Program-made: the position numbers and the translations under genes | Notes under the pieces: model-generated | Told to the model about the DNA's origin: nothing | The model's input: the letters and a program-made list of their open reading frames with translations, nothing else | Database searches by the model: none | In this document: positions 1,411 to 38,241 of the stretch, one piece after another | Layout of the letters: each line of letters starts with the position of its first letter | Numbering within the stretch: the stretch's first letter is position 1 | Origin: a virus | Reading direction: 5' to 3' (one strand) | DNA length: 46,368 nucleotides | Virus record (IMG/VR): IMGVR_UViG_3300008110_000348 | Location: 1 to 46,368 of that record

Positions 1411-3693
1411 ATGTCAACAGTAAGAATTCAGTTACGCAGAGGCACAGCAACCGAATGGACAAATGCTGATACTGCTTTAAACTCATCAGGCGGTCTTGTA
1501 TTAGCTGCTGGTGAAATGGGTGTAGAGACAAACACCAGAAAAATTAAAATTGGCGATGGTTCCACACGATGGAGCTCATTAGCATATGTAGCAGCAGACT
1601 CACCTGCAATTAGTGAGATTGCACAAGATGCAATTAATGATGCCCTTTCAATGGGTTCAGGTTTAACAAAATCTTACAACGATAATACAGATACAATTTC
1701 TATTGCAATTGATGATTCTGTTGTAGCACTTAAGTCTTATGTAGACTCTGAAGTGGGCGGATTACAAAATACAGTAACATCAGATTATGTATTAATATCA
1801 GATGTAGGAAATGCAGGAGGACCTGCAAAGTTAGATGTAGATGGAAATCTATTAGTTCCTAAATCAAGCATTATTTTAGAAGGATCATCAGCAAATGATT
1901 ATGAGACAACTCTAACAGTAACAGATCCTACAGCAGATAGAACAATTACATTGCCAGATGCTTCAGGAACTGTAGCAGTTTTAACAGGTAGCGGAGATTT
2001 AGTTATACCTGGAAATCTAACTGTAAACGGAGATACAACATCATTTAATACAGCAGAAATGCTTGTAGAAGATAATGAATTTGTATTAAATTCAAATGTT
2101 TCAACAGGAACTCCTACAGTAAGTGCTCAGATTTCTGTAAGACGTGGATCATTAGACCCAGCATTTATTCAGTGGAATGAAACAACCGATAAATGGGTAG
2201 CAAATTATGGTGAAGCTAATGCAAAAGAAATAGCAACACTAGACGATGTTGAATTTATGGGAGACACATCAGAAGCATATGCGGATACTCAAATAGGATA
2301 TCACAATGGAATAAGTGTAAATGTTCATGGAATAGCAGACACTTCTTTATTAGTAATACAAAATGATTTATCAACAGCAATTTCTGATCATAATTTAGAT
2401 ACAACAAGCGTTCATGGAATAGCAGATACATCTGTTTTGGTTACTACATCTGACCTTTCATCAACCCTATCTTCAGCTGAAAGTTATGCAGAAACTCAAG
2501 TAACAAATCATAATTTAGATACTACAGATGTTCATGGAATATCAAATACAGCAGATTTAGCAACAAAAGGTTACGCAGATCAAGCGGTATCAGATCATAG
2601 TGGAGACACAACAAATATTCATGGTATTTCAGACACATCTGCTTTAGCAACAAAAACATATGCAGATAATGCAGTATCACAAGAAGCAATTACAACTGCA
2701 TCTAATTTAGCTACAGCAGTATCAAATCATAATAATGCTACAACTTCAGTTCATGGCATTGCGGATACATCTTTGTTAGCAACTACATCTTATGTAGATA
2801 ACGCAGACTCAGATTTACAAGACTCAATAGATCTAAAAGCACCAATTGCAAATCCAACATTTACTGGAACAGTTTCTGGCATTACAGCAACCATGGTAGG
2901 ACTTGGAAACGTAGACAATACTTCTGATTTAGATAAACCAGTTTCTACCGCTACACAAACAGCATTAGATCTTAAGGCAAACCTTAATTCTCCAACATTC
3001 ACAGGTACAGCAACAACAAACCATCTTGTTGTAGATGGTGACTTTACTGTAAATGGTACTAATTTTGCAGCAAGTGCAACATCTATTACAATTGAAGATA
3101 ATATGGTTCAACTTGCACATCAAAATGCAGCAAATACAGTTGATCTTGGTCTTGTTGTAGCATACAACGACGGCTCAGCAAAGCATTCTGGTATTGTTCG
3201 AGATGTTTCCGAAAATAAATGGAAGCTGTTTAAAGGTGTAGCAACAGAACCTTCAACAACAGTTGATTTTACAGAAGGATCTTTAGATGATCTTAAAGTT
3301 GCAGCATTCGAAGCAACAACTGTAACACCTTCAAGCGGTGTAGTGTTCTCAGATGGAACACAAACAAAAGAGGGTGTTCCTTCAAGAACCCCGATTATTT
3401 CAAAGACCGCTGATTACACACTTTCAGCATTATCTGAAAGAGATTCATTAATTGAAGTTGATTCTTCTTCAGCAGTAACAATTACAATTCCAACAAATTC
3501 AGCAGTAGCCTTCCCAGTCGGAACTACTCTTGATATTCTTGGAATAAATACAGGATTAATTACAATAGCAGGAGATACTGGAGTGACAGTAAATGCTACA
3601 CCAGGATTAAAATTACGTACACAATGGTCATCATGTACTCTATTTAAGCGTGGAGAAAACGCTTGGGTAGCTTACGGAGATCTAAAGGCATAG
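1411..3693 (+). CDS. Tail fibre with Mtd-like N-terminal domain
   Basis: A 760-residue fibre protein. Residues 1-62 carry the IQLRRGTATEWTNADT ... LAAGEMGVE ... KIGDGSTRWSSLAY pattern of the N-terminal domain shared by major tropism determinant (Mtd-like) and many tail fibre proteins, which anchors the fibre to the particle. The middle holds beta-rich segments (ITLPDASGTVAVL, LTVNGDTTSFNT) and then five copies of a (V/I)HGI-containing repeat. The end (about residues 665-760) resembles a fibre tip domain with a late 'GENAWVAYGDL' strand. No chaperone or protease domain is seen. It follows an extended -10 promoter and an AAGGGG ribosome site, and the Hint-domain gene is 11 bases downstream. It is most likely a receptor-binding fibre; the ligand cannot be read from sequence. 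Confidence 0.8.
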   Translation: MSTVRIQLRRGTATEWTNADTALNSSGGLVLAAGEMGVETNTRKIKIGDGSTRWSSLAYVAADSPAISEIAQDAINDALSMGSGLTKSYNDNTDTISIAIDDSVVALKSYVDSEVGGLQNTVTSDYVLISDVGNAGGPAKLDVDGNLLVPKSSIILEGSSANDYETTLTVTDPTADRTITLPDASGTVAVLTGSGDLVIPGNLTVNGDTTSFNTAEMLVEDNEFVLNSNVSTGTPTVSAQISVRRGSLDPAFIQWNETTDKWVANYGEANAKEIATLDDVEFMGDTSEAYADTQIGYHNGISVNVHGIADTSLLVIQNDLSTAISDHNLDTTSVHGIADTSVLVTTSDLSSTLSSAESYAETQVTNHNLDTTDVHGISNTADLATKGYADQAVSDHSGDTTNIHGISDTSALATKTYADNAVSQEAITTASNLATAVSNHNNATTSVHGIADTSLLATTSYVDNADSDLQDSIDLKAPIANPTFTGTVSGITATMVGLGNVDNTSDLDKPVSTATQTALDLKANLNSPTFTGTATTNHLVVDGDFTVNGTNFAASATSITIEDNMVQLAHQNAANTVDLGLVVAYNDGSAKHSGIVRDVSENKWKLFKGVATEPSTTVDFTEGSLDDLKVAAFEATTVTPSSGVVFSDGTQTKEGVPSRTPIISKTADYTLSALSERDSLIEVDSSSAVTITIPTNSAVAFPVGTTLDILGINTGLITIAGDTGVTVNATPGLKLRTQWSSCTLFKRGENAWVAYGDLKA
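2299..2805 (+). repeat. Five (V/I)HGI repeats within the fibre gene
   Basis: Five degenerate copies of a unit built on TTxVHGIADTSxLAT (VHGI at about 2323, 2410, 2527, 2617 and 2749) alternate with YADxAVSDH-type linkers. The copies differ in DNA sequence, so the expansion is not recent. They probably form repeated turns of a trimeric shaft. Confidence 0.7.
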
Positions 3694-3704
3694 GAGATAA
3701 ATAA

Positions 3705-5021
3705 ATGAGTAAAAGAGCTGGAAGAAAATCTCAACAGTCTAATGACTTTTTAGAGCCATATAAACCAATAATTACATCAGTTACAGATGTAGGTACAAAT
3801 AGACCATTTAATGATGGGTCTGCAAGCATAGCATTTGAATTGCCAGCAGGATCTCCAGATGCGACATCTTTCACAGCAACATCTAGTCCTACTGGATTAA
3901 CAATAACTGGATCTTCATCTCCATTGGTTATGACTGGATTAGCATCAAATACTAATTATACATTTACAGTATATGCAACAAATTCTTATGGAAATTCACA
4001 AACATCAGATGCATCCTCATCTACATTAATTACAACAGTACCATCAGCACCAGTATCTCCTTCCGTTTCTTCAACAGTTGCCGACAGGGACGATGTTTCT
4101 TGGTCAGAACCATCTAGTGGTGGTAAATCTATTACATCATATACAGTAGTGTCTTCAGATGGACCATCTTATCAAAATATAGCAGCAACGTCATATCAAG
4201 TTTCAGAATCTGGTGGAACTACACAAAGTTATACAATTTATGCAGTTAATGCTAATGGAACATCAGCAGGAGCATCTACAAATTCAGTAACTACATTCTT
4301 TTCTCCACCATCATTCTTTGCACCTCCAGGGTTCTTTAGCCCTCCAGGATTCTTCAGTCCTCCAGGATTCTTCAGTCCTCCAGGATTCTTCAGTCCTCCA
4401 GGATTCTTCAGTCCTCCAGGATTCTTTAGTCCTCCAGGGTTCTTTGCACCACCAAGATTTTTTGCACCTCCAGGGTTCTTTGCACCACCAAGATTTTTTG
4501 GACCTCCGTATTTTGGAGGAGGAGCCACCTGCTTACACGAAGATACACCAGTAACAGTTGTTGGTGAAAATGACTCAATTGAATATAAACCTGCAAAAGA
4601 TGTTCAAGAAGGAGATTGGATATGGGCAGTGGATATAGAAGAACTAGATCCAAATGAACCAGCATATTCATCATTATTCTGGATAAGCCCTACAGCAACC
4701 TTTAATGGTTTAGTTAAAACAGAGGTTATTAATAAATATACTTCTTTAGCTGAAGAAACAATAACCATTAATAATGATCCAAGTTCTAGATTTACAAAAG
4801 AACATCCAATGTTTATAACAAGAAATGGAGAAAATACATTCGTTTTAGCAAATAATTTGCAAATCGGTGATATTTTATCTAAGCATGATAATCAAGGCAA
4901 CATATACTCAGAAACAATAAATTCTATAGAAACTATTGTAGAAGAGTGTGCAGTGCTTACATTTAATGCTGAGCCATATGATTTAATTTATGCAAATGGC
5001 ATATTAACTCATAATAAATAA
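3705..5021 (+). CDS. FN3 x2 / PPGFF-repeat protein with C-terminal Hint domain
   Basis: A 438-residue modular protein. Residues about 18-108 and 112-198 look like two fibronectin type III-like beta domains. Residues about 200-271 are eleven [SA]PPxFF hexapeptides plus a partial unit, then GPPYFGGG. Residues 276-438 are a hedgehog/intein (Hint) fold: start Cys276 (CLHEDTPV), block-B-like T364-K-E-H367 (TxxH), and a C-terminal YDLIYANGILTHNK in which His436-Asn437 are followed only by Lys438. In Hint domains the first Cys makes an N-S acyl shift that activates the upstream peptide bond; His-Asn cleaves the C-terminal side. With no C-extein this cannot be a splicing intein. It may cut itself or transfer the FN3-PPGFF part to a nucleophile, as Hedgehog proteins do. 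The ribosome site is GGAGAT. It lies between a fibre gene and six dioxygenase genes. Confidence 0.8.
   Translation: MSKRAGRKSQQSNDFLEPYKPIITSVTDVGTNRPFNDGSASIAFELPAGSPDATSFTATSSPTGLTITGSSSPLVMTGLASNTNYTFTVYATNSYGNSQTSDASSSTLITTVPSAPVSPSVSSTVADRDDVSWSEPSSGGKSITSYTVVSSDGPSYQNIAATSYQVSESGGTTQSYTIYAVNANGTSAGASTNSVTTFFSPPSFFAPPGFFSPPGFFSPPGFFSPPGFFSPPGFFSPPGFFSPPGFFAPPRFFAPPGFFAPPRFFGPPYFGGGATCLHEDTPVTVVGENDSIEYKPAKDVQEGDWIWAVDIEELDPNEPAYSSLFWISPTATFNGLVKTEVINKYTSLAEETITINNDPSSRFTKEHPMFITRNGENTFVLANNLQIGDILSKHDNQGNIYSETINSIETIVEECAVLTFNAEPYDLIYANGILTHNK
4302..4517 (+). repeat. 18-bp tandem repeat encoding [SA]PPxFF
   Basis: Twelve consecutive 18-base units (the last partial) encode SPPSFF, APPGFF, six SPPGFF, APPRFF, APPGFF, APPRFF and GPPYF. 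The central SPPGFF units are nearly identical at DNA level, which suggests recent slippage or recombination and possible length variation between relatives. There are no spacers, so it is not a CRISPR array. Confidence 0.9.
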
Positions 5022-5023
5022 TA

Positions 5024-5052
5024 TAGACATATAAATAAAGTTTTGCTATAAT
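5024..5052 (+). promoter_or_regulatory. Promoter of the dioxygenase cluster
   Basis: TAGACA at 5024-5029, a 17-base spacer and TATAAT at 5047-5052, with the extended -10 TGC at 5044-5046. It is one of the best sigma70-like promoters in the window and stands just before the first dioxygenase gene. The same -35/-10 pair occurs before the gene at 38294. Confidence 0.7.
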
Positions 5053-5085
5053 TATTTTTTAAATACTAGCAGAAAGATATTTATT

Positions 5086-5703
5086 TTGGAAAAATTAGAA
5101 GTAGGATATGGCATATGGCTATACCGCAACGTATTTCCAGACAATCTTAATTTAATTACAAGAATAGAAAATGCTATTGATAATAGTAATGGAATTTATT
5201 CTTGGAAAGAAGCAATGGTTGGATGGAAACAAAAAATTCCAGAGTATAGAAATTGTTTAGATTTTAAAGTTTCTAAACCAAATAGTACATCAATAACTAA
5301 GAATAAAAGTTCAGTAGAAGTACAATCAATTTGGCAAGACTCCTACAATGCACAAAAAGAATGTCTAGATGATTATTGTAAAATGTATAGAATAAAATTA
5401 GATTATTGGGAATCTTTTAACTTTGTTAAGTATGAAGAGGGCCATCATTTTGAGGAGCACTCAGATCATGGAGATGCCTATGTTTGTACTGTATCTGGAG
5501 TAGGATATCTAAATGATGATTATGAAGGTGGAGAATTATTTTTTCCAAAAATTAATATATTTATTAAACCACAAAAGGGAGATCTATACTTATTTCCATC
5601 TTCATTTATTTATTCTCATAAATCAATGCCAATAAAGTCAGGAACTAAATACTCAATAGTTACAATGTTTGATTATAACGATAAGCACCATAAAGGACAA
5701 TAA
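5086..5703 (+). CDS. 2OG-Fe(II) dioxygenase, prolyl hydroxylase-like (copy 1)
   Basis: A 205-residue oxygenase of the prolyl 4-hydroxylase-like 2-oxoglutarate/Fe(II) superfamily. The double-stranded beta-helix core runs from about residue 108 to 197. Iron ligands are His125-x-Asp127 (HSDH) and His178 (YSHKSMP); Lys188 in GTKYSIV is placed to bind the 2OG carboxylate, Lys being the usual anchor in collagen-type prolyl hydroxylases. The YLNDDYEGGEL motif (residues 141-151) is shared by the sister genes. Family members couple 2OG decarboxylation to hydroxylation of a protein or small molecule. The start is a TTG with a weak AGAAAG ribosome site; it makes the N-terminus align with the next protein (YRNVFP). 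It is first in an eight-gene cluster right after the PPGFF-Hint gene. The substrate is not known. Confidence 0.85.
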   Translation: MEKLEVGYGIWLYRNVFPDNLNLITRIENAIDNSNGIYSWKEAMVGWKQKIPEYRNCLDFKVSKPNSTSITKNKSSVEVQSIWQDSYNAQKECLDDYCKMYRIKLDYWESFNFVKYEEGHHFEEHSDHGDAYVCTVSGVGYLNDDYEGGELFFPKINIFIKPQKGDLYLFPSSFIYSHKSMPIKSGTKYSIVTMFDYNDKHHKGQ

Positions 5704-6398
5704 TGTTAAATAATGCTGAATACCTAGCCCCAGGAATTATAGTTTATAGAAATGTATTCCCAGAATCAATGAATTTAATTCAAAGATTAGAATCAGAACT
5801 TTCAAAAGAAAATAATCCTTATAAATGGAAAACTGCAAAAACTGGGTATAATTTAGAAGATAAAAGATATAGAGATTGTGCTGATTTTAAAATTAAAAGT
5901 AACCCACAAGGTTATTTAATGTTAGGCGGAGAAAGCGTTACGCCAGAAAATAAAAAAGAAACAGAAATAGCTTTAGAAAAAGTTTGGCAAGACTCTTATA
6001 GCGCACAAATAGAACCAGTAGAAGATTATAGAAAAATATTTGGACTTGCACCATTAAATTATTGGGAATCTTTTAATTTTGTTAAGTATGGAGAGGACCA
6101 GCATTTTCAAGTACATTCAGATCACGGATATTCTTATATTTGTGTTTTATCTTCTGTTGGATATATTAATGACGATTACGAGGGTGGAGAATTATTTTTT
6201 GATAAGTTAAATTTAAAAATTAAACCAAAAGCTGGGGATCTTTACTTATTTCCTTCATCTTATATTTACTCACACGCAGCTATGCCAGTTACAAAAGGGG
6301 TTAAATACTCTATAGTTACAATGCTAGATTATTTAGAGGCACCACACACCCCAGAGTACAGAGAAATAGAAAAAAGATATACAGAAAATTATTTATAA
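5703..6398 (+). CDS. 2OG-Fe(II) dioxygenase, prolyl hydroxylase-like (copy 2)
   Basis: A 231-residue paralogue of the preceding gene; its ATG overlaps the previous stop (TAATG). The two align along their length: YRNVFPES against YRNVFPDN, WQDSYSAQ against WQDSYNAQ, and YWESFNFVKY in both. Iron ligands are His138-x-Asp140 and His191; Lys201 (GVKYSIV) is the 2OG anchor. It has a slightly longer insert around residues 65-95 and a C-terminal extension of about 20 charged residues. The clear tandem duplication suggests the pair diverged to handle related substrates or sites. A complete active site argues that the enzyme is functional. Confidence 0.85.
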   Translation: MLNNAEYLAPGIIVYRNVFPESMNLIQRLESELSKENNPYKWKTAKTGYNLEDKRYRDCADFKIKSNPQGYLMLGGESVTPENKKETEIALEKVWQDSYSAQIEPVEDYRKIFGLAPLNYWESFNFVKYGEDQHFQVHSDHGYSYICVLSSVGYINDDYEGGELFFDKLNLKIKPKAGDLYLFPSSYIYSHAAMPVTKGVKYSIVTMLDYLEAPHTPEYREIEKRYTENYL

Positions 6399-7099
6399 TG
6401 TATAAGATTAAGGCTTATAAAAATATTAATTCTGCAGATATAAAACAAATTAATATTAAAAGAGACTGGATGGACAATACTGTAGATGGACACGCATACA
6501 GATGTTTTCCAGTAACATTAGCAAATGGATTAGGATGGGGTTTATCTTTTCCTAAAGATATATCTTTTATTTGGGACGGAATTTCAGACACCTCTGGAAA
6601 TCATGTAAAAATATTAGAAGGAGAAGAGTATTGTTATACAGAAAGAGCAAATGCTACAATTAGTTTCAAAACAGGTATAATATTTGAAACAGATAAAGAC
6701 GTAAGCTTACTACAAATGCCTGTCCCAAATATGTTTATAGATGGAGCACAAGCATTTACAACAATAATGAGTACATCTTTTTTTAAAGGAGAATTTCCCT
6801 GTGCTCTAAGAATAACTAAACCGTTTACAAAAATTACAATTAAAGCTAATCAGCCGTTTATATCAATAGTACCAATATCTTTAACTAATTTACAAAATTC
6901 AATAATAGAAATTGATGATCCTAAGAATATGAAAAATAACATATCTTTAGATGAAAAAGAACACTTAGATGTTGTTAAAGAAAAAACAAAAAATGGAATA
7001 TGGACCAATTTCTATAGAGATGCTGTTAATTATAAAGGACAAAAAATAGGAGAGCATGAAGTTAAAGCAATTAGACTTTATGTTAACAATAATGAATAA
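6398..7099 (+). CDS. DUF6065-like protein
   Basis: A 233-residue protein that I recognise as DUF6065-like from RDWMDNTVDGHAYRCFPVTL, LGWGLSFPKDISFIWDG and the following beta-rich half. The family has no established function. No metal or nucleotide motif stands out. Its C-terminal half (SLLQMPVPNMFIDGAQAF ... MSTSFFKGEFP ... ITIKANQPFISIVPI) can be lined up with that of the next gene, so the two probably share a fold. It starts at an ATG overlapping the previous stop, so it is translationally coupled to the dioxygenases. Membership in the cluster suggests a role in the same modification process, for instance substrate binding; that is inference. Confidence 0.6.
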   Translation: MYKIKAYKNINSADIKQINIKRDWMDNTVDGHAYRCFPVTLANGLGWGLSFPKDISFIWDGISDTSGNHVKILEGEEYCYTERANATISFKTGIIFETDKDVSLLQMPVPNMFIDGAQAFTTIMSTSFFKGEFPCALRITKPFTKITIKANQPFISIVPISLTNLQNSIIEIDDPKNMKNNISLDEKEHLDVVKEKTKNGIWTNFYRDAVNYKGQKIGEHEVKAIRLYVNNNE

Positions 7100-7811
7100 A
7101 ATAATATTTCATTCATCTAGACCTTATAATAAAAATACTGAAGAATATTTACCCGTGCCTTCAAAAACAGAAATTCCAAACTGGTTTTCTAAAGCTAGTA
7201 AATATTGGAAAAACATGGATGGTTCATATATTGTAGATCATCTTGGTGAAAGAGGACTCGGTTTTAAATCATGCCCAGCACTTTTAGATTCATTTTCTAT
7301 TGGTTATCTTTTAAAAACTCCATGTGATTTAGCATTTTATGAAAAAGATGGAGATATACATGTAGAAACCCCCAAAGGATTTGAAGAGTTTTGTGCAAGA
7401 AGAGAAGAGATGCCAGAGTTTGTAGTTCCACATGGATATAGAAAAACACATTTTCATTGGTGGCCAAATTGGTCAATGGAGACCCCAGAAGGATATAGCT
7501 TATTAGTTATAAATCCATTAAATAGATTTGATTTACCATTTTTAACAACTAATGGTATTATAGATAGTGATATGTACACAATTTCAGGACTTATTCCATT
7601 TTTCTTAAAAGATAATTTTGTAGGATTAATTCCTAAAGGAACTCCATATGCACAAGTAATTCCTTTTAAAAGAGAAGACTGGAAAATGGAACCTATTTTT
7701 CATGAAAAAAGAACTATGATAAAAAAACATGTTTTTACTGCAAGAAAATTTAGAGTAAAAGGCGGAGGAATATACAAAAAAGATATTTGGAAACCAAAGA
7801 AATATGAATAA
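7092..7811 (+). CDS. Conserved phage protein, DUF6065-related core
   Basis: About 239 residues from ATG 7092, which overlaps the previous stop; an ATG at 7056 would extend it by 12 residues but overlap its neighbour further. The motifs PEGYSLLVINPLNRFDLPF, MYTISGLIPFFLKDNFVGL and IPKGTPYAQVIPFKREDW are typical of a hypothetical protein family in tailed phages, cyanophages included. They align loosely with the DUF6065-like gene before it (SLL..PxNxF; T..I.S/GxxPFF; P..xVIPF). The N-terminus carries IPNWF. No catalytic signature is seen. It lies between dioxygenase copies 2 and 3 in one unbroken transcript. Function unknown. Confidence 0.65.
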   Translation: MNKIIFHSSRPYNKNTEEYLPVPSKTEIPNWFSKASKYWKNMDGSYIVDHLGERGLGFKSCPALLDSFSIGYLLKTPCDLAFYEKDGDIHVETPKGFEEFCARREEMPEFVVPHGYRKTHFHWWPNWSMETPEGYSLLVINPLNRFDLPFLTTNGIIDSDMYTISGLIPFFLKDNFVGLIPKGTPYAQVIPFKREDWKMEPIFHEKRTMIKKHVFTARKFRVKGGGIYKKDIWKPKKYE

Positions 7812-7822
7812 AGGAGACTGTT

Positions 7823-8539
7823 ATGTTTGAAAATGCAAACGAAAAAGATATTATACAAAATTTTGATGCCGTAAATGAAAACAAAGATATTAGAACTGCT
7901 AGAAAATCAATAACCCCTTCTGGATACTTTGGTTCTTCTTCTAATATGATTCAAGAAATAGAAAATTTTTTAACTGAGGAAGAACAAGAATTTTTATTAA
8001 ATTTTGCAAAAAATAATAAAATATGGGACGTAACAGAATCACATTATAATGAAAATGGAACTATTATATATGACCATAGGCCTTGGGAAAATAGAGTCGC
8101 AACTCTTAATACATTAACAAAAGCAAACCCAGAAGTAGTTTTAATGTTAAGAGAAATTATAGAAAGATTGAAACCAGTAATTGAATCTTTTTATAATGTA
8201 GAAGCTACACCTACACACCCAGCAATTGTTAGATGGCCTAAAGGTACATATCAATTCCCACATGCAGATAAAGAGTTACACGAGGGCCCAGACGCTGGAA
8301 AAGAAAATGATTTTCCATGGTATGATCTAGGAACTATTTTTTATTTAAATGATGACTACGAAGGCGGAGAACTTCATTTCCCTAAACAAAATATATCTTT
8401 TAAACCAAAAGCAAGAGCAGCATATTTTTTCCCTGGAGATTTAAATTATATACATGGAGTTAATGTAGTAAAGGAAGGATGTAGATATACATCGCCCTGG
8501 TTTTGGACTATTACAAAATTAAAGGATAAAAATGTATAA
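7823..8539 (+). CDS. 2OG-Fe(II) dioxygenase (copy 3)
   Basis: A 238-residue 2-oxoglutarate/Fe(II) oxygenase. The N-terminal 120 residues are helical (IENFLTEEEQEFLLNFAKNN), as in prolyl hydroxylase-like proteins. The core has His147-x-Asp149 (PHADKE), YLNDDYEGGELHFP, distal His211 (YIHGVNVV) and Arg221 (CRYTSPWFW) as the 2OG anchor. Arg, where copies 1 and 2 have Lys, places it in a different branch from the first pair. The ribosome site is AAAGGAG, 5-6 bases before the ATG. It overlaps the next gene by 8 bases. The substrate is unknown. Confidence 0.85.
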   Translation: MFENANEKDIIQNFDAVNENKDIRTARKSITPSGYFGSSSNMIQEIENFLTEEEQEFLLNFAKNNKIWDVTESHYNENGTIIYDHRPWENRVATLNTLTKANPEVVLMLREIIERLKPVIESFYNVEATPTHPAIVRWPKGTYQFPHADKELHEGPDAGKENDFPWYDLGTIFYLNDDYEGGELHFPKQNISFKPKARAAYFFPGDLNYIHGVNVVKEGCRYTSPWFWTITKLKDKNV

Positions 8540-9245
8540 TATAACAAAATATAAAGATGATGTATTTACAATAGATGATTTTTTAACTGAAGATGAGTGT
8601 AAAAGAATCATAGATTATTTGGAAATGTCAGTACAAAATAATTATATTAAATGGAACCAGATCTCATTTTATGAATCTTATGCTATGGGATTTTGGGAAT
8701 ATGATAATAATTTAATTCCTTTTGGATTTAATCCAAAATATTTTCATGAGCTTAAAGAAAAAATAAAAAATGCTGGTGAAATCTGCTTTAATAATAAATT
8801 AAGCGAAATTAGTTATCATGCACAAAAATGGACAGAGGGCGCATTTGCAGGATTCCATTCAGACAATTCAGATGAACATGGAAACCCAACGGCTTTTCAA
8901 AGAAGTAAATATGCAATTTTTTTATATCTTAATGATAATTTTGATGGTGGTAATTTAAACTTTGAACACTATCCAATTAACATAAAACCAAAAGTAGGAA
9001 TGTTAGCGGTTTTTAAAGGCGGATATAAAAATGAACATGAAGTAACAACAGTTAAAAATGGTGAAAGGTATACTATTGGATCATTTTGGGATGACGCAGA
9101 CGCAGTCTACACAGATGAAGAAAAAGCTAAATGGGAAGTTGAATTAAAAGAAACAAGAGCTGGTCAAGAAGTTATGTATAAAAAATGGAAATCTGATAAA
9201 GAAAATGGAATAGTTCCAACTTATAAAAGTAAGTATGAAAACTAA
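8532..9245 (+). CDS. 2OG-Fe(II) dioxygenase (copy 4)
   Basis: A 237-residue oxygenase starting inside the end of the previous gene. It opens with the typical FTIDDFLTEDECKRIIDYL helix. Iron ligands are His109-x-Asp111 (FHSDNS) and His169 (NEHEVTTV), with Arg179 (GERYTIGSFW) as 2OG anchor. The sister motif is relaxed here to YLNDNFDGGNLNF. A 45-residue charged helical tail follows the core (residues about 190-237). It is the most divergent of the six copies, but all active-site residues are present. Confidence 0.85.
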   Translation: MYNITKYKDDVFTIDDFLTEDECKRIIDYLEMSVQNNYIKWNQISFYESYAMGFWEYDNNLIPFGFNPKYFHELKEKIKNAGEICFNNKLSEISYHAQKWTEGAFAGFHSDNSDEHGNPTAFQRSKYAIFLYLNDNFDGGNLNFEHYPINIKPKVGMLAVFKGGYKNEHEVTTVKNGERYTIGSFWDDADAVYTDEEKAKWEVELKETRAGQEVMYKKWKSDKENGIVPTYKSKYEN

Positions 9246-9256
9246 CAGGAGAAAAC

Positions 9257-10075
9257 ATGAGCAATAATATGGAAAGAATAGTATTATATCCAAAGGTAGA
9301 GGTATATAGAAATTTATTAAATAACGTAAATGATTTATATGAAACTATGAAGGAATCAGAAAAAACATCAGACGGAAAATATTATTTAAGAAAATGGGAT
9401 AAATGGTCGGTTTTTGGAACTTATACTCAACAAAAACACGAGGAGTCAGAGCCAAGAGAATACGGTCAAATGTACGATAGAGAAAAACTATTATCTGATG
9501 AAGTTTATAAAGCGTATAACATTGCAATAGATGCATATATAAAAAATAATAATGTTGTCATGCCAGAAGGAGCTCAATTAATGTCTTCTTCATTCTCTAA
9601 ATATAAAAAAGACTTAGATGTTTTAGAAAATAATTTAGCCATGCAGTACCATACAGATTTTAAAATTTTTGAATCAGAGTGGCCAGGGTCAAAATTTTTT
9701 CTAACATGTACAACTTACATTAATGATGATTATGAGGGTGGAGATATTGAATTTTTTATAAATGGAGAATTTGTTTCTCACAAACCAAAAGCAGGAGACA
9801 TTTTAGTTTTTCCTTCTATCCCTCCATATTTTCATGGAGTTAAAACAATTAAAAGAGGAGAAAAGTTTTTTGTAAGAAATTTTATCACATATCTTTCTGA
9901 GGGTTCTAGATCTTGGTTAGAGAATCAAAAAATATACGGACCAAGAGAATGGCTTCAGATGGAAGAAGATAGAATTAAAAGAGAGATGCCAGAAGCAATG
10001 CTTTATTTTGAAAATGGAAAACAGATACAATATTCAGAGAAAATAAAAAATAATGAAAATAACAACATTAAATGA
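9257..10075 (+). CDS. 2OG-Fe(II) dioxygenase (copy 5)
   Basis: A 272-residue oxygenase, the longest of the six, with an AGGAGA ribosome site just before its ATG. His132-x-Asp134 (YHTDFK), YINDDYEGGDIEF, His193 (PYFHGVKTI) and Lys203 (GEKFFVRNF) form the expected iron and 2OG site. A C-terminal extension (YLSEGSRSWLENQKIYGPRE...) of about 60 residues is helical and charged, and could be a substrate or partner arm. Its start (YPKVEVYRNLLNNV) resembles copies 1 and 2, which suggests shared ancestry. Confidence 0.85.
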   Translation: MSNNMERIVLYPKVEVYRNLLNNVNDLYETMKESEKTSDGKYYLRKWDKWSVFGTYTQQKHEESEPREYGQMYDREKLLSDEVYKAYNIAIDAYIKNNNVVMPEGAQLMSSSFSKYKKDLDVLENNLAMQYHTDFKIFESEWPGSKFFLTCTTYINDDYEGGDIEFFINGEFVSHKPKAGDILVFPSIPPYFHGVKTIKRGEKFFVRNFITYLSEGSRSWLENQKIYGPREWLQMEEDRIKREMPEAMLYFENGKQIQYSEKIKNNENNNIK

Positions 10076-10655
10076 TAATATTATTTACTATCAGAGTTTA
10101 ATAAATGATATAGATAATTTTATTAATTTAATAAATAATATAGAAGAAGAATATGTTTATCTTTTTTCTAAATGGGAAAAATGGTATGCCAGCAATGCAG
10201 ATGTTTTATATGGAGAATCTAGAGAATCTTCTTTTAGTAGTATATTAAATAATTGTAAAAAGGAATCAGATTCTTTTTTTATTGCAAAAACTATCAAAGA
10301 ATTAGTAGATTTTTGCATTAAAGATTATTGTGAAAAAACAAAACAGGTCCCAGGATATTTGCCAGATCATTTTACAATTAAAAAATATAATACCGATGCA
10401 TATATGGGTCCACATGTAGATACCGAAGATTTATTTGATAAAAAACAACCATCTATATCTATGGTTTTTTATTTAAATGATGATTACGAGGGGGGAGAAA
10501 TAGAGTTCCCTAATCAGCAAATCAAAATAAAGCCAGAAGCTGGAAGTTTAATTATATTCCCGTCCTATCAACCATATATACATGACCCAAAACCAGTTTT
10601 ATCTGGAACCAAATACATGATACCTCTTTTTTGGTTTAAAGAAAAGTTTTGGTAG
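10053..10655 (+). CDS. 2OG-Fe(II) dioxygenase (copy 6)
   Basis: A 200-residue oxygenase and the last gene of the cluster; its ATG lies 23 bases inside copy 5. His121-x-Asp123 (PHVDTED), YLNDDYEGGEIEFP, His177 (PYIHDPKPV) and Lys187 (GTKYMIPLFW) are in register with the other copies. A FSKWEKWYASNADVLYG stretch near residue 45 matches a similar WDKW segment of copy 5, so these two are the closest pair after copies 1 and 2. No terminator is visible after it; a new promoter follows within 30 bases. Confidence 0.85.
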   Translation: MKITTLNDNIIYYQSLINDIDNFINLINNIEEEYVYLFSKWEKWYASNADVLYGESRESSFSSILNNCKKESDSFFIAKTIKELVDFCIKDYCEKTKQVPGYLPDHFTIKKYNTDAYMGPHVDTEDLFDKKQPSISMVFYLNDDYEGGEIEFPNQQIKIKPEAGSLIIFPSYQPYIHDPKPVLSGTKYMIPLFWFKEKFW

Positions 10656-10687: not shown

Positions 10688-12466
10688 ATGTCTTATAAAA
10701 ATGTAATTGTAAAAGACTCACCAATAGGATACTGGCCGCTGTCTGAAAATACTGGCACAACTATAATAGATGAATCTGGATGCAATAATAATGGAACAGC
10801 GTCAAGTTTAAGCGTAGTAAAAATACCACTAGTTTCAGACGGATCATCAGTAGCTAGGCTGATGTCAGATTCAGTATATTTAATATTTAATACATTAAAT
10901 AGCTATTCTCAAGAATCACTAACGGTTCCTGGATTTGCAAACAAATATTCATCTGACAATGATTTTAGTTTAGAGTGTTGGGTATATCCACAAATATCTG
11001 ACCTATCAGAAATTGCAATCCTAGCAGATATAGATAATGAAATAGGAATTTTTTGGGATCAGGGAAATATAGTATTTAAATTAAATAGTGAAACGTTGTC
11101 ATATACAATCCCAGACTTTAATCAAGCATTGCACATAGTTGCCACATATTCTGTAGACAGAATGTCTATTTATTTAAATGGAAGTTTGGCTGTATTCAAA
11201 ACATTAGAAAGTTTTTCTTTTTCAAATACATCTCTTGAAATACAATCTGGACCAATAGATGGAGACGATAATTATTTTATTTTAGATAATGTAGCAATAT
11301 ATAGATATGCTTTAAACGAAAATCAAATTTTAAACCATTATTCGTATACTGGATATACCATACCATATCAAGTTGTAATACCAGACGACGGAGAACTTTT
11401 TGAATTTGTAGATAGTCAGATGAATAAAACTTTTACATATTCATACCCATACAATAAATCATGGGAAGGATTTTTAAATGAAGATGTGGTGTTAAATAGA
11501 TCAGAAAATTATATAGAAATATTAAAAACAAATACTGTTGAAAATAAAGAATTTATAATAGAAGATATAATTTCTATACCATCAGCAATACCAATGGACT
11601 CATCAAAAATAGAATGGGCTGGACACAATGGCATTTCTGTAGAAACAAGTATAGATGGAATTACTTATGAACAATGTGTTAATGGACAATCAATACCTCA
11701 ATTTTTAACAAGTAGCTTTAGCGATTCAAAAGTTATTTATTTAAAAATTACTATGTCGTCTACCGACACGTCGAAGTATTGTCCAAAACTATATAGCCTA
11801 ACAATATCATTCTATAATCAGCAAATAATGTATTCTAGAAATGGAAATAGCTATTTATCAAAAGTTGAAGATTGCGACGCATACCTAGGGACAGAAAAAC
11901 ACCCAATATCTTTTAGAAATAATAAAAATGGAATCTTGGTTCCACTAGATTCAGGATTTAAGATAAATACAGATAAGCTAGTAAAATCAATAGAATTTTT
12001 CTATACGCCATACGATAACTTTCTTTCTGGTCCATCAACTATACCAGGATCAATAATTAATGTCGCTTTATTTGGAGACGGGGAAGCAGCAAGTTATTCA
12101 TGGGATAATGGATTTACAATATCCAAAACCAATATAGAATCATTATATGTGAACACAGTAGACTATACAAGCGAAACCAATATGTCATATATATTTGCCC
12201 CAGGAAATCTACACCATGTAGTAATTTCATTTTCTGACTCAGTAACTGGAGAATTAATTTTTAATATAAATCAAGGGGATGGACCTAAAGCCCTATACCA
12301 AAATCTATCCCTATATACAGAAACCTTAGACTATAATAAAATTAAAAACCACTATAGTCTATATTTAGGAAAGTCTACCTATACAGCAGAAACTTCTGCC
12401 ACCAACCTGTCAGAAAATTCAGTAAATTTATATAATAATGACTGGCTTGTGATACAAAACTCATAA
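10688..12466 (+). CDS. LamG-domain tail appendage protein
   Basis: A 592-residue protein. Residues about 1-225 form a LamG/concanavalin-like jelly roll: SPIGYWPLSENTGTTIIDESG, then FSLECWVYP, LHIVATYSVDRMSIYLNGS and the closing LDNVAIYRYALNENQILNHY. The C-terminal 170 residues look like a second such domain (LHHVVISFSDSVTGELIFNI, LSLYTETLDYNKIKNHYSLY). The middle region (230-400) is a beta-rich linker. LamG-like folds bind glycans, so a carbohydrate-binding appendage is likely. It appears to be transcribed without a leader and lies between the dioxygenase cluster and the head genes. Confidence 0.75.
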   Translation: MSYKNVIVKDSPIGYWPLSENTGTTIIDESGCNNNGTASSLSVVKIPLVSDGSSVARLMSDSVYLIFNTLNSYSQESLTVPGFANKYSSDNDFSLECWVYPQISDLSEIAILADIDNEIGIFWDQGNIVFKLNSETLSYTIPDFNQALHIVATYSVDRMSIYLNGSLAVFKTLESFSFSNTSLEIQSGPIDGDDNYFILDNVAIYRYALNENQILNHYSYTGYTIPYQVVIPDDGELFEFVDSQMNKTFTYSYPYNKSWEGFLNEDVVLNRSENYIEILKTNTVENKEFIIEDIISIPSAIPMDSSKIEWAGHNGISVETSIDGITYEQCVNGQSIPQFLTSSFSDSKVIYLKITMSSTDTSKYCPKLYSLTISFYNQQIMYSRNGNSYLSKVEDCDAYLGTEKHPISFRNNKNGILVPLDSGFKINTDKLVKSIEFFYTPYDNFLSGPSTIPGSIINVALFGDGEAASYSWDNGFTISKTNIESLYVNTVDYTSETNMSYIFAPGNLHHVVISFSDSVTGELIFNINQGDGPKALYQNLSLYTETLDYNKIKNHYSLYLGKSTYTAETSATNLSENSVNLYNNDWLVIQNS

Positions 12467-12865: not shown

Positions 12866-14451
12866 TGGAATTTATTGATGAAGAAAATAATCTATCTCAA
12901 GAAGTAAGTATATCAAATTCAGCAGATTGGTTTAAGTTTAATAATAAAGAAGTTACAATAGACAATGATCCATTTAATATTGATGAAGACTCATTAAAAA
13001 AAGTACACGGACTTAGTCCAGCTTTTAGACGTAAAATGTCTAGAGAATTTTCAAAACGTTTTATCGGACAAGAAAAAACTGGAACTCAACAAAATTTATT
13101 GCAACAGGCTGTAACTGGCTATGCCATGTTCGACCTAGTACAACCAGTTTATAACTTAGAATATTTATCTAAAATTTATGAAATATCTCCATATAACTAT
13201 GCTGCAATTAATGCAAAGGTTGCAAATATTGTTGGATTAGGATATACATTTGTTGAAACTAAAAAGGCAAATGATGCATTAGATAATATTGAAGATCCAA
13301 AACAATTAGAAAGAGCTCGTCGTAAATTAAATAAACTAAGACAAGATCTAGATAATTGGCTAGAGGAAACAAACGAAGAAGAAACTTTCACAGAAACTTT
13401 GATAAAAGCATATACTGATCTTGAAGCCACTGGAAATGGATATATTGAAATTGGTAGAACAAGCGCTGGTAATATTGGATATATAGGACACATTCCTGCA
13501 AAAACTATGCGTGTTCGTAGACTTCGTGATGGCTTTATTCAATTGCTTTACGGTAAGGCAGTATTCTTTAGAAACTTTGGAGATCAGGAAACACCTAATC
13601 CAATCGCAGGGCAAGAAGATCGTCCAAATGAAATTATTCATTTAAAGAAATACACACCGATGAATAACTATTATGGCATTCCAGATATTATTGCATCACA
13701 AAATGCTATGGCAGGAAATGAGTTTGCTGGTAAATACAATTTAGATTATTTTGAAAACAAAGCAGTACCTCGTTATATTATTACTGTAAAGGGTGCCAAG
13801 TTATCACCAGAATCAGAACGTAAGCTTCTTGAATTTTTCCAGGTAGGACTAAAAGGTAAAAATCACAGATCATTATATGTGCCACTACCAGCAGATACAG
13901 CAGATTCTAAAGTTGAATTTAAAATGGAACCAATTGAAGCAAATGCTCAAGAATCTTCATTTAATGTATATCGTAAATCAAATAGAGATGAAATATTATT
14001 AGCCCATAGAGTTCCAATTAATAAAATTGGAGTTCCAGAAGGAGTAAGTTTAGCTTCTGCTAGAGATGCTGATAAAATGTTTAAGGAGCAGGTATGTCGT
14101 CCTGCACAAGATATTTTAGAGAAAAAATTAAATAGAATTATTGCAGAAAAAACAGATGCTGTAATTCTTAAATTCAATGAATTAACTCTAACTGATGAGG
14201 ATACTCAGTCTAAAATTGATGAAAGATATTTGCGTATGCAGGTTATTACCCCTAATGAGGTTAGAATTAGAAAAGGTATGATTCCAATGGACGGCGGAGA
14301 TGAGGTTGTTGTTTTAAAACCACAGCAACAATCAGAAATTAGAGCCCAAGCTGGAAATTCTAGAAATAGGACTCAAGAGAGATCTGCAAATTCCCCAGAT
14401 ATTTCAGGGGAGGCTAGAAATCCAAAAGGTGAAGGTCGTACCACCGCTTAA
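12865..14451 (+). CDS. Portal protein
   Basis: A 528-residue portal of the HK97/PBSX-like type, which forms the dodecameric ring through which DNA enters and leaves the head. Diagnostic parts are YEISPYNYAAINAKVANIVG (about residue 108), LEATGNGYIEIGRT (about 188), PNEIIHLKKYTPMNNYYGIP (about 255), and the wing/stem region with RDEILLAHRVPINKIGVPEG (about 375). The C-terminus is disordered and rich in Gln, Arg and Ser. Arg is encoded by both AGA and CGT. The ribosome site GGAGG lies about ten bases before the ATG. A terminator follows the gene, separating it from the protease. Confidence 0.9.
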   Translation: MEFIDEENNLSQEVSISNSADWFKFNNKEVTIDNDPFNIDEDSLKKVHGLSPAFRRKMSREFSKRFIGQEKTGTQQNLLQQAVTGYAMFDLVQPVYNLEYLSKIYEISPYNYAAINAKVANIVGLGYTFVETKKANDALDNIEDPKQLERARRKLNKLRQDLDNWLEETNEEETFTETLIKAYTDLEATGNGYIEIGRTSAGNIGYIGHIPAKTMRVRRLRDGFIQLLYGKAVFFRNFGDQETPNPIAGQEDRPNEIIHLKKYTPMNNYYGIPDIIASQNAMAGNEFAGKYNLDYFENKAVPRYIITVKGAKLSPESERKLLEFFQVGLKGKNHRSLYVPLPADTADSKVEFKMEPIEANAQESSFNVYRKSNRDEILLAHRVPINKIGVPEGVSLASARDADKMFKEQVCRPAQDILEKKLNRIIAEKTDAVILKFNELTLTDEDTQSKIDERYLRMQVITPNEVRIRKGMIPMDGGDEVVVLKPQQQSEIRAQAGNSRNRTQERSANSPDISGEARNPKGEGRTTA

Positions 14452-35790: not shown

Positions 35791-38241
35791 ATGACAGCAA
35801 AAACATATTTAAAGGTTACTCCAAGTACATGGAAAGCTGTAAAATATATATATGTTAAAGTAACACAAAGTACCTGGAAAAAAGTAAAAAATATATATGT
35901 AAAAATATCTCCAACTGAGTGGACAAAAACATTTGGAACAGTTGACTCACCAACACAATTAACTAGACCTACATTATCAGGAACGGGTAGAGTTGGAACA
36001 AGCATTACCAAATCACCAGGAACATATAGCAATTATGATTCAATTGTAAATAAAATATTTTATACCACAGATGAAACTTTGCCAGGAGATGGATATAGCG
36101 AAGAGGTAATTTATGGAAATACTAAATCAACATCTTCATATACAATAGACCAAACAGATGCTACTCCACCACCAAACATTTTTTATTCAAGAGATGAAGT
36201 TACTGGAACAGATGGTATAACTAAATATTATTATTACAGTGATCCACTGACTGCTACCATGCAAGGTATAGAAGATAACTTTAACAATAGAACAACTACA
36301 AGCGGATTAGGTATTGCAAGCGGAGGATTTATTTATAGCTCCTATGCTAGAAATACAAGTTCATGGAGTGTAAGTGGTGGAAAAGCAATAAACAATAGTA
36401 ATGGAAGTGGTTATCCCCTACAAAGTGTTGATTTAAATTCTTCTAATCAAAATACATCAATAGATACATCAGGTGGTGGACTAGGACTTGCTGTATGGGT
36501 TGCATCTGCAAATTCTTGGTGGGCAGTAGTACCAGAGTACTCTTATGAAATTGAACCAGGACTTGCATACAATTGTACTAGTAATAAAACTGGAACAGAA
36601 GAAGAATGTAATGCCGTTTCATATGTTTCAGCTAATATTGAAGGATCTGCATATACAATTTCTGATGTAGGCAAAAGATGTACAGCATGTACAACAACAT
36701 CTAGCTTATATAATTATTCATGTACTAATGATGTAAGAGTATTAAATGCAGGAGATCCGTGTCCAGAATATGAAAATTGGAGCTCTGCAATGCCTGGCGG
36801 AGAAAATACAGTTTGTTCAGGATCCTGTACAGAATCTTATGAATATGTATGTACATCTGATTGGGCATTGAATCAGCCAGATTGTAGCGGATTATTAATA
36901 AGGCCAGATCCAACAGGACCAAATCAACTTTGTGCATGTGAAAGTTATAGTGAAGTAGTAGCAATATGTCCATCATATTATAATAATAGTGGTCCTTGCA
37001 ATGATTCTAATTATGGCGGATCAGCAATAGGTGATCAATGTAGTTATTGCAATGTTTCAACTTCATATGCCTATAGCTATAGAGATTCTTATTTAACTAC
37101 AACTTATCCATGTAATTCACCAGCATCATGTAACGGACAAGGTTGTTGTGAAGGAATTTCATATAGACCAGATCCAACTGGTAGCGGTCAAAGATGTAGC
37201 ACTTGTAATGAAACTTCTACAAGTTCTTCTACATATTCTTATTTTGTAAGATCAAGCACTGGAAGCACTACATATCCATGTAATGGATCTACTATTACTG
37301 GATCAGCTACTTGCCCAACGTATAGACCAGATCCAACTGGTGCTGGACAAAACTGTAGTGGTTGTACATCATCTACAACTACAACATATGGTTCATGTAA
37401 AACTCCAGGCGCTAATGACCCATCTGGATGCGTTAGAGCACCTGCTGGATATACAGCATGTGCCGTAGGATTTGTTAGATGTCCATCTACAACTACAACA
37501 TATTCGTATACAGTTAGCACTTCATCAACAACTTATTCATGTAACGTACAAGTCTCTGGTTCTGGTTCTTGTCCATCGCCATTACCAGCAACAGGATCTG
37601 GACCAGGACAAAGATGTACATCATGTTCAACTTCTACTACCACTACATATACTTCTACATATACTTTATCTAGTTCAAGTTCAAGTTATTTATGTTCAAA
37701 TTATATAACTGGACAATCAAATTGTCCAGGAGAAGGATCTGGACCAGGACAAAGATGCGGAGCATGTACAGCAACAACTACAAGTTTATATAAAACAAGA
37801 ATTGCTGAAACTCAAACAAGATGGAAAACTAAAACAAGTACAACATTAACATATAATAATTATAAAACTAGACAATATTTAGGAGCAGTAATTTATAAAT
37901 CTTGGAAAGAGGTAGAAGAAGTACAATCTGATGCATATACATATAATTCAAATTTAAGTATATATTCATATTCTTCTGGAACATTAACATTACAAAATTC
38001 AATCGTTGTTAGTTCTTATGCTGCACAAGCAGGATCTGAATACAGCGAACTATTGTATCCAACAATTACAAAGGTAGCTGCAGTTACTACTGGAAATACA
38101 ATAAATGCTTTAGGATATGTAGGCACATATTTTGATACTACATCTGCCACAAATACTGGCACTAAAGGAACATCTGTAGGACTAGTTAGCCTTCCAGCAG
38201 TTGAAAAAATAGGTAATCAATTAGACAATTTCTCAGCATAA
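35791..38241 (+). CDS. Cys-rich repeat protein, adhesin-like
   Basis: An 816-residue protein. Residues about 6-47 are three repeats of YVKVTxSTWKKVKN (LKVTPSTWKAVKY, IYVKVTQSTWKKVKN, IYVKISPTEWTK), perhaps an attachment module. Residues about 50-150 are FN3-like; about 160-250 carry a jelly-roll-like segment. Residues about 262-659 contain about 38 cysteines in repeated units built on YRPDPTGxGQRCSxC and YPCN, separated by Ser/Thr-rich stretches. The C-terminus is free of Cys and ends VEKIGNQLDNFSA. Disulfides could form only outside the cytoplasm, so this may be an exposed tip that matures after lysis. I know no family with this architecture. Confidence 0.7.
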   Translation: MTAKTYLKVTPSTWKAVKYIYVKVTQSTWKKVKNIYVKISPTEWTKTFGTVDSPTQLTRPTLSGTGRVGTSITKSPGTYSNYDSIVNKIFYTTDETLPGDGYSEEVIYGNTKSTSSYTIDQTDATPPPNIFYSRDEVTGTDGITKYYYYSDPLTATMQGIEDNFNNRTTTSGLGIASGGFIYSSYARNTSSWSVSGGKAINNSNGSGYPLQSVDLNSSNQNTSIDTSGGGLGLAVWVASANSWWAVVPEYSYEIEPGLAYNCTSNKTGTEEECNAVSYVSANIEGSAYTISDVGKRCTACTTTSSLYNYSCTNDVRVLNAGDPCPEYENWSSAMPGGENTVCSGSCTESYEYVCTSDWALNQPDCSGLLIRPDPTGPNQLCACESYSEVVAICPSYYNNSGPCNDSNYGGSAIGDQCSYCNVSTSYAYSYRDSYLTTTYPCNSPASCNGQGCCEGISYRPDPTGSGQRCSTCNETSTSSSTYSYFVRSSTGSTTYPCNGSTITGSATCPTYRPDPTGAGQNCSGCTSSTTTTYGSCKTPGANDPSGCVRAPAGYTACAVGFVRCPSTTTTYSYTVSTSSTTYSCNVQVSGSGSCPSPLPATGSGPGQRCTSCSTSTTTTYTSTYTLSSSSSSYLCSNYITGQSNCPGEGSGPGQRCGACTATTTSLYKTRIAETQTRWKTKTSTTLTYNNYKTRQYLGAVIYKSWKEVEEVQSDAYTYNSNLSIYSYSSGTLTLQNSIVVSSYAAQAGSEYSELLYPTITKVAAVTTGNTINALGYVGTYFDTTSATNTGTKGTSVGLVSLPAVEKIGNQLDNFSA
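36574..37767 (+). repeat. Cysteine-rich repeat region
   Basis: Degenerate units of 40-60 residues with the core PDPTGxxQxCxxC or GSGPGQRCxxC (near 36901, 37168, 37325, 37590 and 37740) followed by a Ser/Thr-rich stretch and one or two further Cys. About 38 Cys fall within about 400 residues. Confidence 0.75.

Follow-up and report, generated by a model that had tools for sequence, protein, structure and literature searches.

The window considered here is a stretch of viral DNA of 46,368 bases, analysed over its whole length and corresponding to positions 1 to 46,368 of the IMG/VR virus record IMGVR_UViG_3300008110_000348. Near its start, a gene for a repeat protein carrying a tandem tract of xPPxFF hexads follows directly on a tail-fibre-like gene and precedes a run of genes that includes six 2-oxoglutarate (2OG)/Fe(II) dioxygenases. 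The features of this locus are:

1411..3693, + strand: tail-fibre-like protein with an Mtd_N N-terminal domain (E 1.8e-12), directly 5' of the repeat gene
3705..5021, + strand: repeat protein of 438 amino acids with an FN3-type N-terminus (fn3 E 1e-7), the xPPxFF hexad tract and a C-terminal Hint-like domain; proposed substrate
4305..4514, + strand: xPPxFF tract, 11 PPxFF units and PPYF, residues 201-270, 18-nt period, DNA repeat family D1
5086..5703, + strand: 2OG/Fe(II) dioxygenase, orthogroup A1, TTG start as listed (PF13640 E 1.2e-11; H125, D127, H178, K188)
5703..6398, + strand: 2OG/Fe(II) dioxygenase, orthogroup A2, a close relative of A1 (PF13640 E 1.2e-12)
6398..7099, + strand: DUF6065 protein (PF19541 E 3.1e-28; phrog_7084 E 3.7e-6)
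7056..7811, + strand: phrog_7084 protein (E 1e-30), its model best matched by dUTPases
7823..8539, + strand: 2OG/Fe(II) dioxygenase, orthogroup C (PF13640 E 2.1e-6)
8532..9245, + strand: 2OG/Fe(II) dioxygenase, orthogroup D (PF13640 E 6.4e-11)
9257..10075, + strand: 2OG/Fe(II) dioxygenase, orthogroup E (PF13640 E 7e-7)
10053..10655, + strand: 2OG/Fe(II) dioxygenase, orthogroup F (PF13640 E 6.4e-13)
10688..12466, + strand: Laminin-G/concanavalin-like neighbour 3' of the enzyme run, putative member of the unit (Laminin_G_3 E 8.7e-13)

Positions 5086-10655 hold eight genes on the same strand, separated by short gaps or overlapping: the six dioxygenases together with the DUF6065 and phrog_7084 genes. 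All six dioxygenases match PF13640 (2OG-FeII_Oxy_3) above the Pfam cut-off, and a search of the whole window with 5703-6395 as query returned six matches, every one of them inside this run. The original prediction for this DNA had described six intact enzymes, and the HxD motif, the distal His and the Lys/Arg anchor are indeed present in all six. Catalytic residues are likewise kept in 595 of 600 dereplicated orthologues (proteins of 170-330 residues, rows L001-L009 left out), the iron and 2OG ligands being intact in A1 98/98, A2 53/53, C 122/122, D 98/99, E 115/115 and F 109/113. A2 is 56% identical to A1 and both cluster together in the tree. At one related locus (L085:12712-15200), enzyme-like open reading frames (ORFs) are found as fragments of 69-83 residues, perhaps representing a decaying or badly assembled cluster.

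The eleven PPxFF repeats reported earlier were found at the coordinates given for them as exact hexads, followed by a twelfth unit, PPYF, with each unit beginning 6 residues past the preceding one. Pro and Phe residues are constant along the tract while the codons used for them vary, so the protein sequence of the tract is what is conserved. Across 91 distinct repeat proteins, 882 xPPxFF units were counted, a count that requires both PP and FF, and the step from one unit to the next is 6 residues in 810 cases out of 813. Ala, Ser and Gly predominate at the first variable position; at the second, 441 of the 882 units have Gly, with Ser, Leu, Arg, Asn and Ala next. The constant part is thus PP plus FF, and not PPGFF as had been proposed. 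That Pro and Phe are fixed despite codon change, and that dozens of different phages have the same arrangement, argues against chance. A distant branch, among loci L186-L238, carries FFPPFFPFFPP tracts, several of them with short Cys-rich tails in place of the Hint-like domain. A collagen-like repeat was considered and ruled out, given the period of six and the lack of Gly at every third residue.

The C-terminal part of the window repeat protein gives an Intein_splicing match of 21.6 bits, below the Pfam cut-off of 35.8, and contains a Cys after the tract, a TxxH motif (TKEH) and a terminal HNK. We take a Cys at block A, TxxH and a terminal HN to be the motifs of Hint/intein autoprocessing. 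Beyond the tract, the 91 distinct repeat proteins fall into 56 with a C-terminus of Hint length, 22 with a short tail and 13 with nothing or almost nothing, and a Cys near the tract end combined with HN within the last nine residues is found in 23 of the 56. Pairing of the repeat with a Hint domain, which the original prediction had noted in the window protein, therefore does not hold throughout the family, and the domain is optional.

Co-occurrence of repeat gene and enzyme cluster in related phages, a check that the original prediction had proposed, was examined from both ends and the linkage proved tight. For the enzyme-first scan, viral contigs were searched with alignments of orthogroups D and E, ignoring the repeat. 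A locus had to contain a run with at least 4 dioxygenases and, ahead of it, more than 4 kb of sequence, and a repeat was scored as at least 4 PPxF units within 4 kb upstream. These counts, like those of the DNA-pattern scan below, are samples among the matches listed. Relatives with the cluster and without a repeat, which according to the original prediction would speak against a connection, were specifically looked for: 152 loci gave 76 passing the filter and 45 after dereplication, with the repeat gene present upstream in 74/76 and 43/45, respectively. At one of the two exceptions, L196, the contig starts inside a Hint-type ORF and the repeat part would lie off the contig.

The repeat-first searches gave the same picture. 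A DNA pattern for three PPxFF units returned at least 80 loci, 31 of them nonredundant with at least 3 kb downstream, and at least 2 dioxygenases lie within -5/+8 kb in 30 of the 31. The remaining locus, L313, has six dioxygenases in its whole record, adjoining an FN3-type repeat gene. When the repeat protein was used instead and 80 loci were retained out of 222 relatives, at least one dioxygenase was found downstream in 79 of 80, the remaining contig (L063) ending 81 bases past the repeat gene. Repeat genes of the FN3 type with at least 9 kb downstream (73 nonredundant cases from 72 loci, L223 holding two repeat genes) are followed by 4-11 enzymes each. Every one of the 73 has orthogroups C and D; F is found in 71, E in 68, A1 in 59 and A2 in 48, the D and E counts being partly so by construction, as some loci were found through D or E. 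Considering the 33 cases reached from the repeat side with no enzyme as key (window included), C, D and F are present in 33, A1 and E in 30 and A2 in 22. Enzyme order is near-constant across the 73 cases, with D and E swapped in many. The separate survival of these orthogroups with intact active sites argues that the enzyme lines are not interchangeable. Judged by gene neighbourhood, repeat and enzymes are one conserved unit found far more widely than in a single window.

This unit is not bound to one type of carrier. Whereas the window tract sits in an FN3-type protein, the carrier is PASTA-like in L183 (below the Pfam cut-off) and L301 (just above it), and small carriers of 130-150 residues are found in L262, L266, L287, L292 and L300. 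The small carrier of L266 has no match in the annotated phage collection. In L252 (9634-10284) the PPxFF tract is fused directly to an S74 endosialidase-chaperone domain, a domain typical of tail spikes; this fusion is independent evidence for the tract belonging to tail fibres or spikes. Dioxygenases and DUF6065-type genes adjoin the tract in L252, L262, L266, L276, L183 and L287. Since the enzymes stay where the carrier changes, the tract is the likeliest thing for them to serve. The label notFN used in our locus tables includes carriers cut at a contig start; L252, L276 and the small-carrier loci are the safe non-FN3 cases. Larger tract proteins of about 790-890 residues were also observed (L301:1042-3666, L313:6599-9019, L260:7945-10620, L293:8942-11323 and L298:9637-12021), in L260 and L313 on the same piece as an FN3-type repeat protein. 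Record G021, which contains L284, holds two tracts (3184-3270 and 13960-14082); only the second adjoins dioxygenases, while the first is similar to the solitary tract in L289.

An abundance of dioxygenases alone does not bring the repeat with it, as five dioxygenase-rich records of the cyanophage family carry 4, 4, 10, 10 and 13 PF13640 matches (E <= 0.001) that are dispersed and accompanied by no tandem PPxFF. The same records show that the earlier figure of one or two such genes per known phage was an understatement. In a genome collection of 84,980 species and 257 billion bases, the four-unit pattern was found in 3 stretches with no dioxygenase within 7-8 kb, and their frames look low-complexity or out of frame. 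A bacterial or host-borne origin of the cassette was considered and set aside: a scan of the genome collection by means of the D alignment produced 16 pattern matches, none of them a relative, and the four-unit stretches lack dioxygenases. A search of the annotated phage collection with the window repeat protein returned one record, matching the intein-like part only, by a BLAST search that masks low-complexity tracts and is blind to the repeat.

The assignment of the enzymes to the prolyl-hydroxylase type, made in the original prediction, is borne out by profile comparison for five alignments (A, C, D, E and F) and by the predicted fold of D. Searches of solved structures placed a Bacillus prolyl 4-hydroxylase (P4H; 3itq, 5hv0) first for group A (1.3e-8) and group C (8.8e-6). 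For group F, the Bacillus P4H 3itq (7.8e-9) is tied with the PKHD-type hydroxylase 3dkq (8.1e-9). Prolyl 3-hydroxylase 1 (P3H1; 8k0e/8k0m) is the best match of D (7.3e-8) and of E (1.2e-3). The structural model of orthogroup D (predicted local distance difference test score, pLDDT, 94.2) shows a double-stranded beta-helix fold, and this one enzyme model is, as predicted, of the prolyl-hydroxylase type. Its top structural row is an algal P4H with bound (Ser-Pro)5 (Z 17.6, 169 residues, 2.8 A, 15% identity), further rows including P3H1 (8k0m, Z 16.8, tied with the top row, as are all rows within one Z unit), PHD2, a Pseudomonas P4H and others. Prolyl hydroxylases account for 49 of the 50 structural rows listed, which come from a Foldseek preselection with many PHD2 entries; a shared fold is no proof of a shared substrate.

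The two remaining genes of the run may be related to each other. An AlphaFold2 model of the 7056 protein (pLDDT 88.8) returned dUTPases in all 50 structural rows, the best being a Plasmodium dUTPase (Z 10.2, 126/251 residues, 3.1 A; Foldseek E 1.9e-4, with a TM-score, by query length, of only 0.29). The 7056 family has conserved GIIDxD and GTPxxQ stretches that resemble dUTPase motifs III and IV; among 42 members, none gave a dUTPase Pfam match. Profile comparison of DUF6065 (6398) with the 7056 family (E 9.7e-5, probability 58) makes the DUF6065 protein look like a distant relative. The two proteins might act on nucleotides, or might be scaffolds put to new use in holding the tract. Relatives of 7056 occur in 49 annotated records, by name haloarchaeal tailed viruses such as HF2 and HSTV-2, and are labelled hypothetical proteins among the 25 matches listed. 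The haloviruses were dismissed as further examples of the cassette, as HSTV-2, the one examined, has neither a tandem repeat nor PF13640 matches. The DUF6065 protein 6398 has no match in the annotated phage collection, and no mention of DUF6065 was found in the literature searched.

Hosts of the phages carrying the cassette are probably Actinobacteria, because the nearest named relatives of the window portal protein are from Streptomyces phages (about 58% identity) and because WhiB, a mark of actinobacterial genes, is encoded in 11 of 12 large records with such clusters, the twelfth being the record of L187. A 113 kb relative, IMGVR_UViG_3300032050_000037, encodes a repeat protein identical to that of the window.

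The architecture of the locus, its intact active sites and the linkage of repeat and enzymes seen from both directions are best read as a phage tail-surface modification cassette whose enzymes would most likely hydroxylate the tract, a reading to which we assign a probability of roughly 0.67. Because a surface repeat protein adjoins a row of prolyl-hydroxylase-like enzymes, a dedicated machine for finishing a phage adhesion protein is suggested. The tract is probably the substrate of the enzymes, and proline is the slightly favoured candidate for the main hydroxylated residue; a role in adhesion at the fibre is conceivable, though we would put it somewhat below even odds. The gene order runs from the tail fibre to the xPPxFF carrier and on to several dioxygenases (4-11 in the complete cases) with one or more dUTPase-like or DUF6065 proteins. 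Once the carrier is made, the dioxygenases would hydroxylate its hexads using host Fe(II), oxygen and 2OG, chiefly on proline and possibly on phenylalanine, with each conserved enzyme line potentially differing from the others in position, order or stereochemistry. After modification, the tract would be displayed near the fibre, where the added hydroxyls could render a hydrophobic repeat soluble, stiff, sticky or linkable, and it may serve the tail adhesion apparatus as a stiff or sticky element. A bolder version, which we offer tentatively, is that in phages infecting uncultured freshwater Actinobacteria at least 5 non-interchangeable hydroxylases and their dUTPase-like helpers densely oxidise a hydrophobic Pro-Phe tail repeat at several positions per hexad. 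The product would be a new hydroxylated biopolymer forming an adhesive or stiff fibre tip, a counterpart to collagen and to the hydroxyproline proteins of plants.

Several findings weigh against the proposed cassette. L187, whose 145 kb record gives seven PF13640 matches and shows no tandem pattern, is the only clear exception to the linkage. In 18 whole records that were searched (those of 14 pattern-first loci whose pieces have no enzyme or just a distant one, plus L187, L196, L252 and L276; L288, L301 and L303 were excluded as sharing contigs with enzyme-bearing loci), at least 3 PF13640 matches are found in 13, one in three and none in two. In the five poor records, the tract lies no more than about 3 kb from the contig end toward which it reads, and these records therefore count neither for nor against the linkage. 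G001, the 113,072-base record of L007, whose repeat protein is identical to that of the window, contains 11 PF13640 matches. Five of them lie outside the cluster (e.g. at 62,606 and at 1,864), three of these below the Pfam cut-off, which indicates that phage dioxygenases have other uses too. As to the type of enzyme, PKHD-type hydroxylases are also matched by A, C and F, by F as strongly as P4H, lysyl hydroxylase LH3 is among the matches of group A (5.3e-5), and NCBIfam gives weak matches, far below cut-off, to PKHD-type and cyclophane-peptide oxygenases. The fold evidence covers one of the six enzymes, D, modelled without substrate. Finally, of 65 distinct FN3-type repeat genes with enough sequence ahead of them, 64 have a homologue of the fibre protein 1411-3693 no more than 600 bp upstream. 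The tail fibre is thus as constant a neighbour of the repeat as the enzymes are, and the linkage may reflect joint inheritance or another substrate.

This last point makes the neighbouring fibre the main rival substrate, all the more so as its homologue also adjoins the tract in the non-FN3 loci L252, L262, L266, L276, L183, L287 and L292. In that case the fibre, or some other protein of the virion, would be what the enzymes modify, with the PPxFF protein only a co-inherited partner or a tip protein. We regard this as unlikely: in the collections scanned the tandem hexad is found almost only near these enzymes, among the matches listed; prolyl-hydroxylase-like enzymes suit Pro-rich repeats; and the second, larger tract protein in L260, L301 and L313 is what a shared substrate motif would lead one to expect. 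A different target within the tract itself, phenylalanine or the variable residues, modified by beta-hydroxylation or by oxidative FF cross-linking as in some ribosomal peptide pathways, has perhaps one chance in four. Within the 882 units, FF varies no more than PP does (though, as noted, each counted unit has both by definition), D is the enzyme that weakly matches the cyclophane-peptide 2OG oxygenase model, and six enzyme lines exceed the apparent need of two prolines. Yet the best solved relative of every enzyme alignment is a prolyl hydroxylase, as are nearly all structural rows of the D model.

Less credible still is that the run is an accessory expansion by tandem duplication, without a shared substrate and merely parked beside a tail gene. 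The clustering of A1 with A2 and the many dispersed dioxygenases of the five repeat-free cyanophage-family records would fit such a history, whereas the constancy of C and D (73/73 cases, and 33/33 from the repeat side), the intact active sites and an association that spans different carriers do not. Putting the Hint-like domain at the heart of the system, with self-cleavage joining the repeat protein covalently to something else and the enzymes in a side role, seems the most far-fetched of these alternatives. The window protein does have the Cys after the tract, the TxxH and the terminal HN; this reading nevertheless loses weight, as 35 of the 91 distinct repeat proteins lack a C-terminus of Hint length, and even where it is present Cys and terminal HN are together in the minority of cases given above.

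Compared with known systems, the modification cassette would be a variant of virus-encoded prolyl hydroxylation, a kind of activity already described. The closest viral likeness is vCPH of the chlorella virus PBCV-1 (PDB 5c5t), a virus-encoded 2OG prolyl hydroxylase that is matched by the D model (Z 15.2) and by the profiles of A and F. The PBCV-1 prolyl 4-hydroxylase reportedly acts on Pro-rich viral peptides and is a single enzyme of a eukaryotic virus, whereas the phages have 4-11 enzymes in a row, linked in the genome to a single type of repeat. The Chlamydomonas P4H solved with (Ser-Pro)5 (PDB 3gze) is similar in that the [S/A/G]-Pro-Pro of the tract resembles Ser-Pro repeats, but its substrate has no FF and it is only 15% identical to the D model. 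Collagen, the substrate of P3H1, differs from the phage tract in being built of Gly-X-Y, the tract having a period of six. The 2OG-Fe(II) oxygenases of cyanophages (phrog_61 and relatives) belong to the same superfamily, with 4-13 matches per genome in the five records mentioned, and cyanophage S-SCSM1 has three of them close to its short tail fiber gene; unlike the enzymes described here, the oxygenases of those five records are dispersed along the genome and come without tandem PPxFF. In gene position, the window repeat protein, encoded directly 3' of the fibre gene, is comparable to gp38 of T-even phages, the fibre-tip adhesin, a small repeat-rich protein encoded right after the fibre gene; no hydroxylases are known to be associated with T-even gp38.

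Prolyl hydroxylases for collagen are stated to be absent from bacteria and viruses (PMC3368898), and two collagen-like proteins beside a tail fiber gene are reported from freshwater Actinobacteria phages (PMC10202952). Among the matches listed in the literature searched, which includes few subscription papers and no bioRxiv preprints, no title or abstract opening points to such a cassette. The string PPGFF is present in two papers, neither of which deals with phages, judging by title and abstract.

If the proposed hydroxylation cassette is real, phages build a hydroxylated repeat protein with a whole series of enzymes, and some 2OG dioxygenases of aquatic phages, often filed as auxiliary metabolic genes, would have a concrete job. 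Phage adsorption would then be tied to the host supply of oxygen, iron and 2OG. A matched enzyme-substrate system of small enzymes and a six-residue substrate would lend itself to studying the division of labour among prolyl hydroxylases, with new hydroxylated materials as a possible use.

Of 32 distinct loci with enough sequence downstream of the enzyme run, 22 have a homologue of the Laminin-G-like neighbour (10688..12466) there within 5 kb. Elsewhere in the window, the tail region encodes an 816-residue protein (35791-38241) with many imperfect Cys-rich and Thr/Ser/Tyr-rich repeats.

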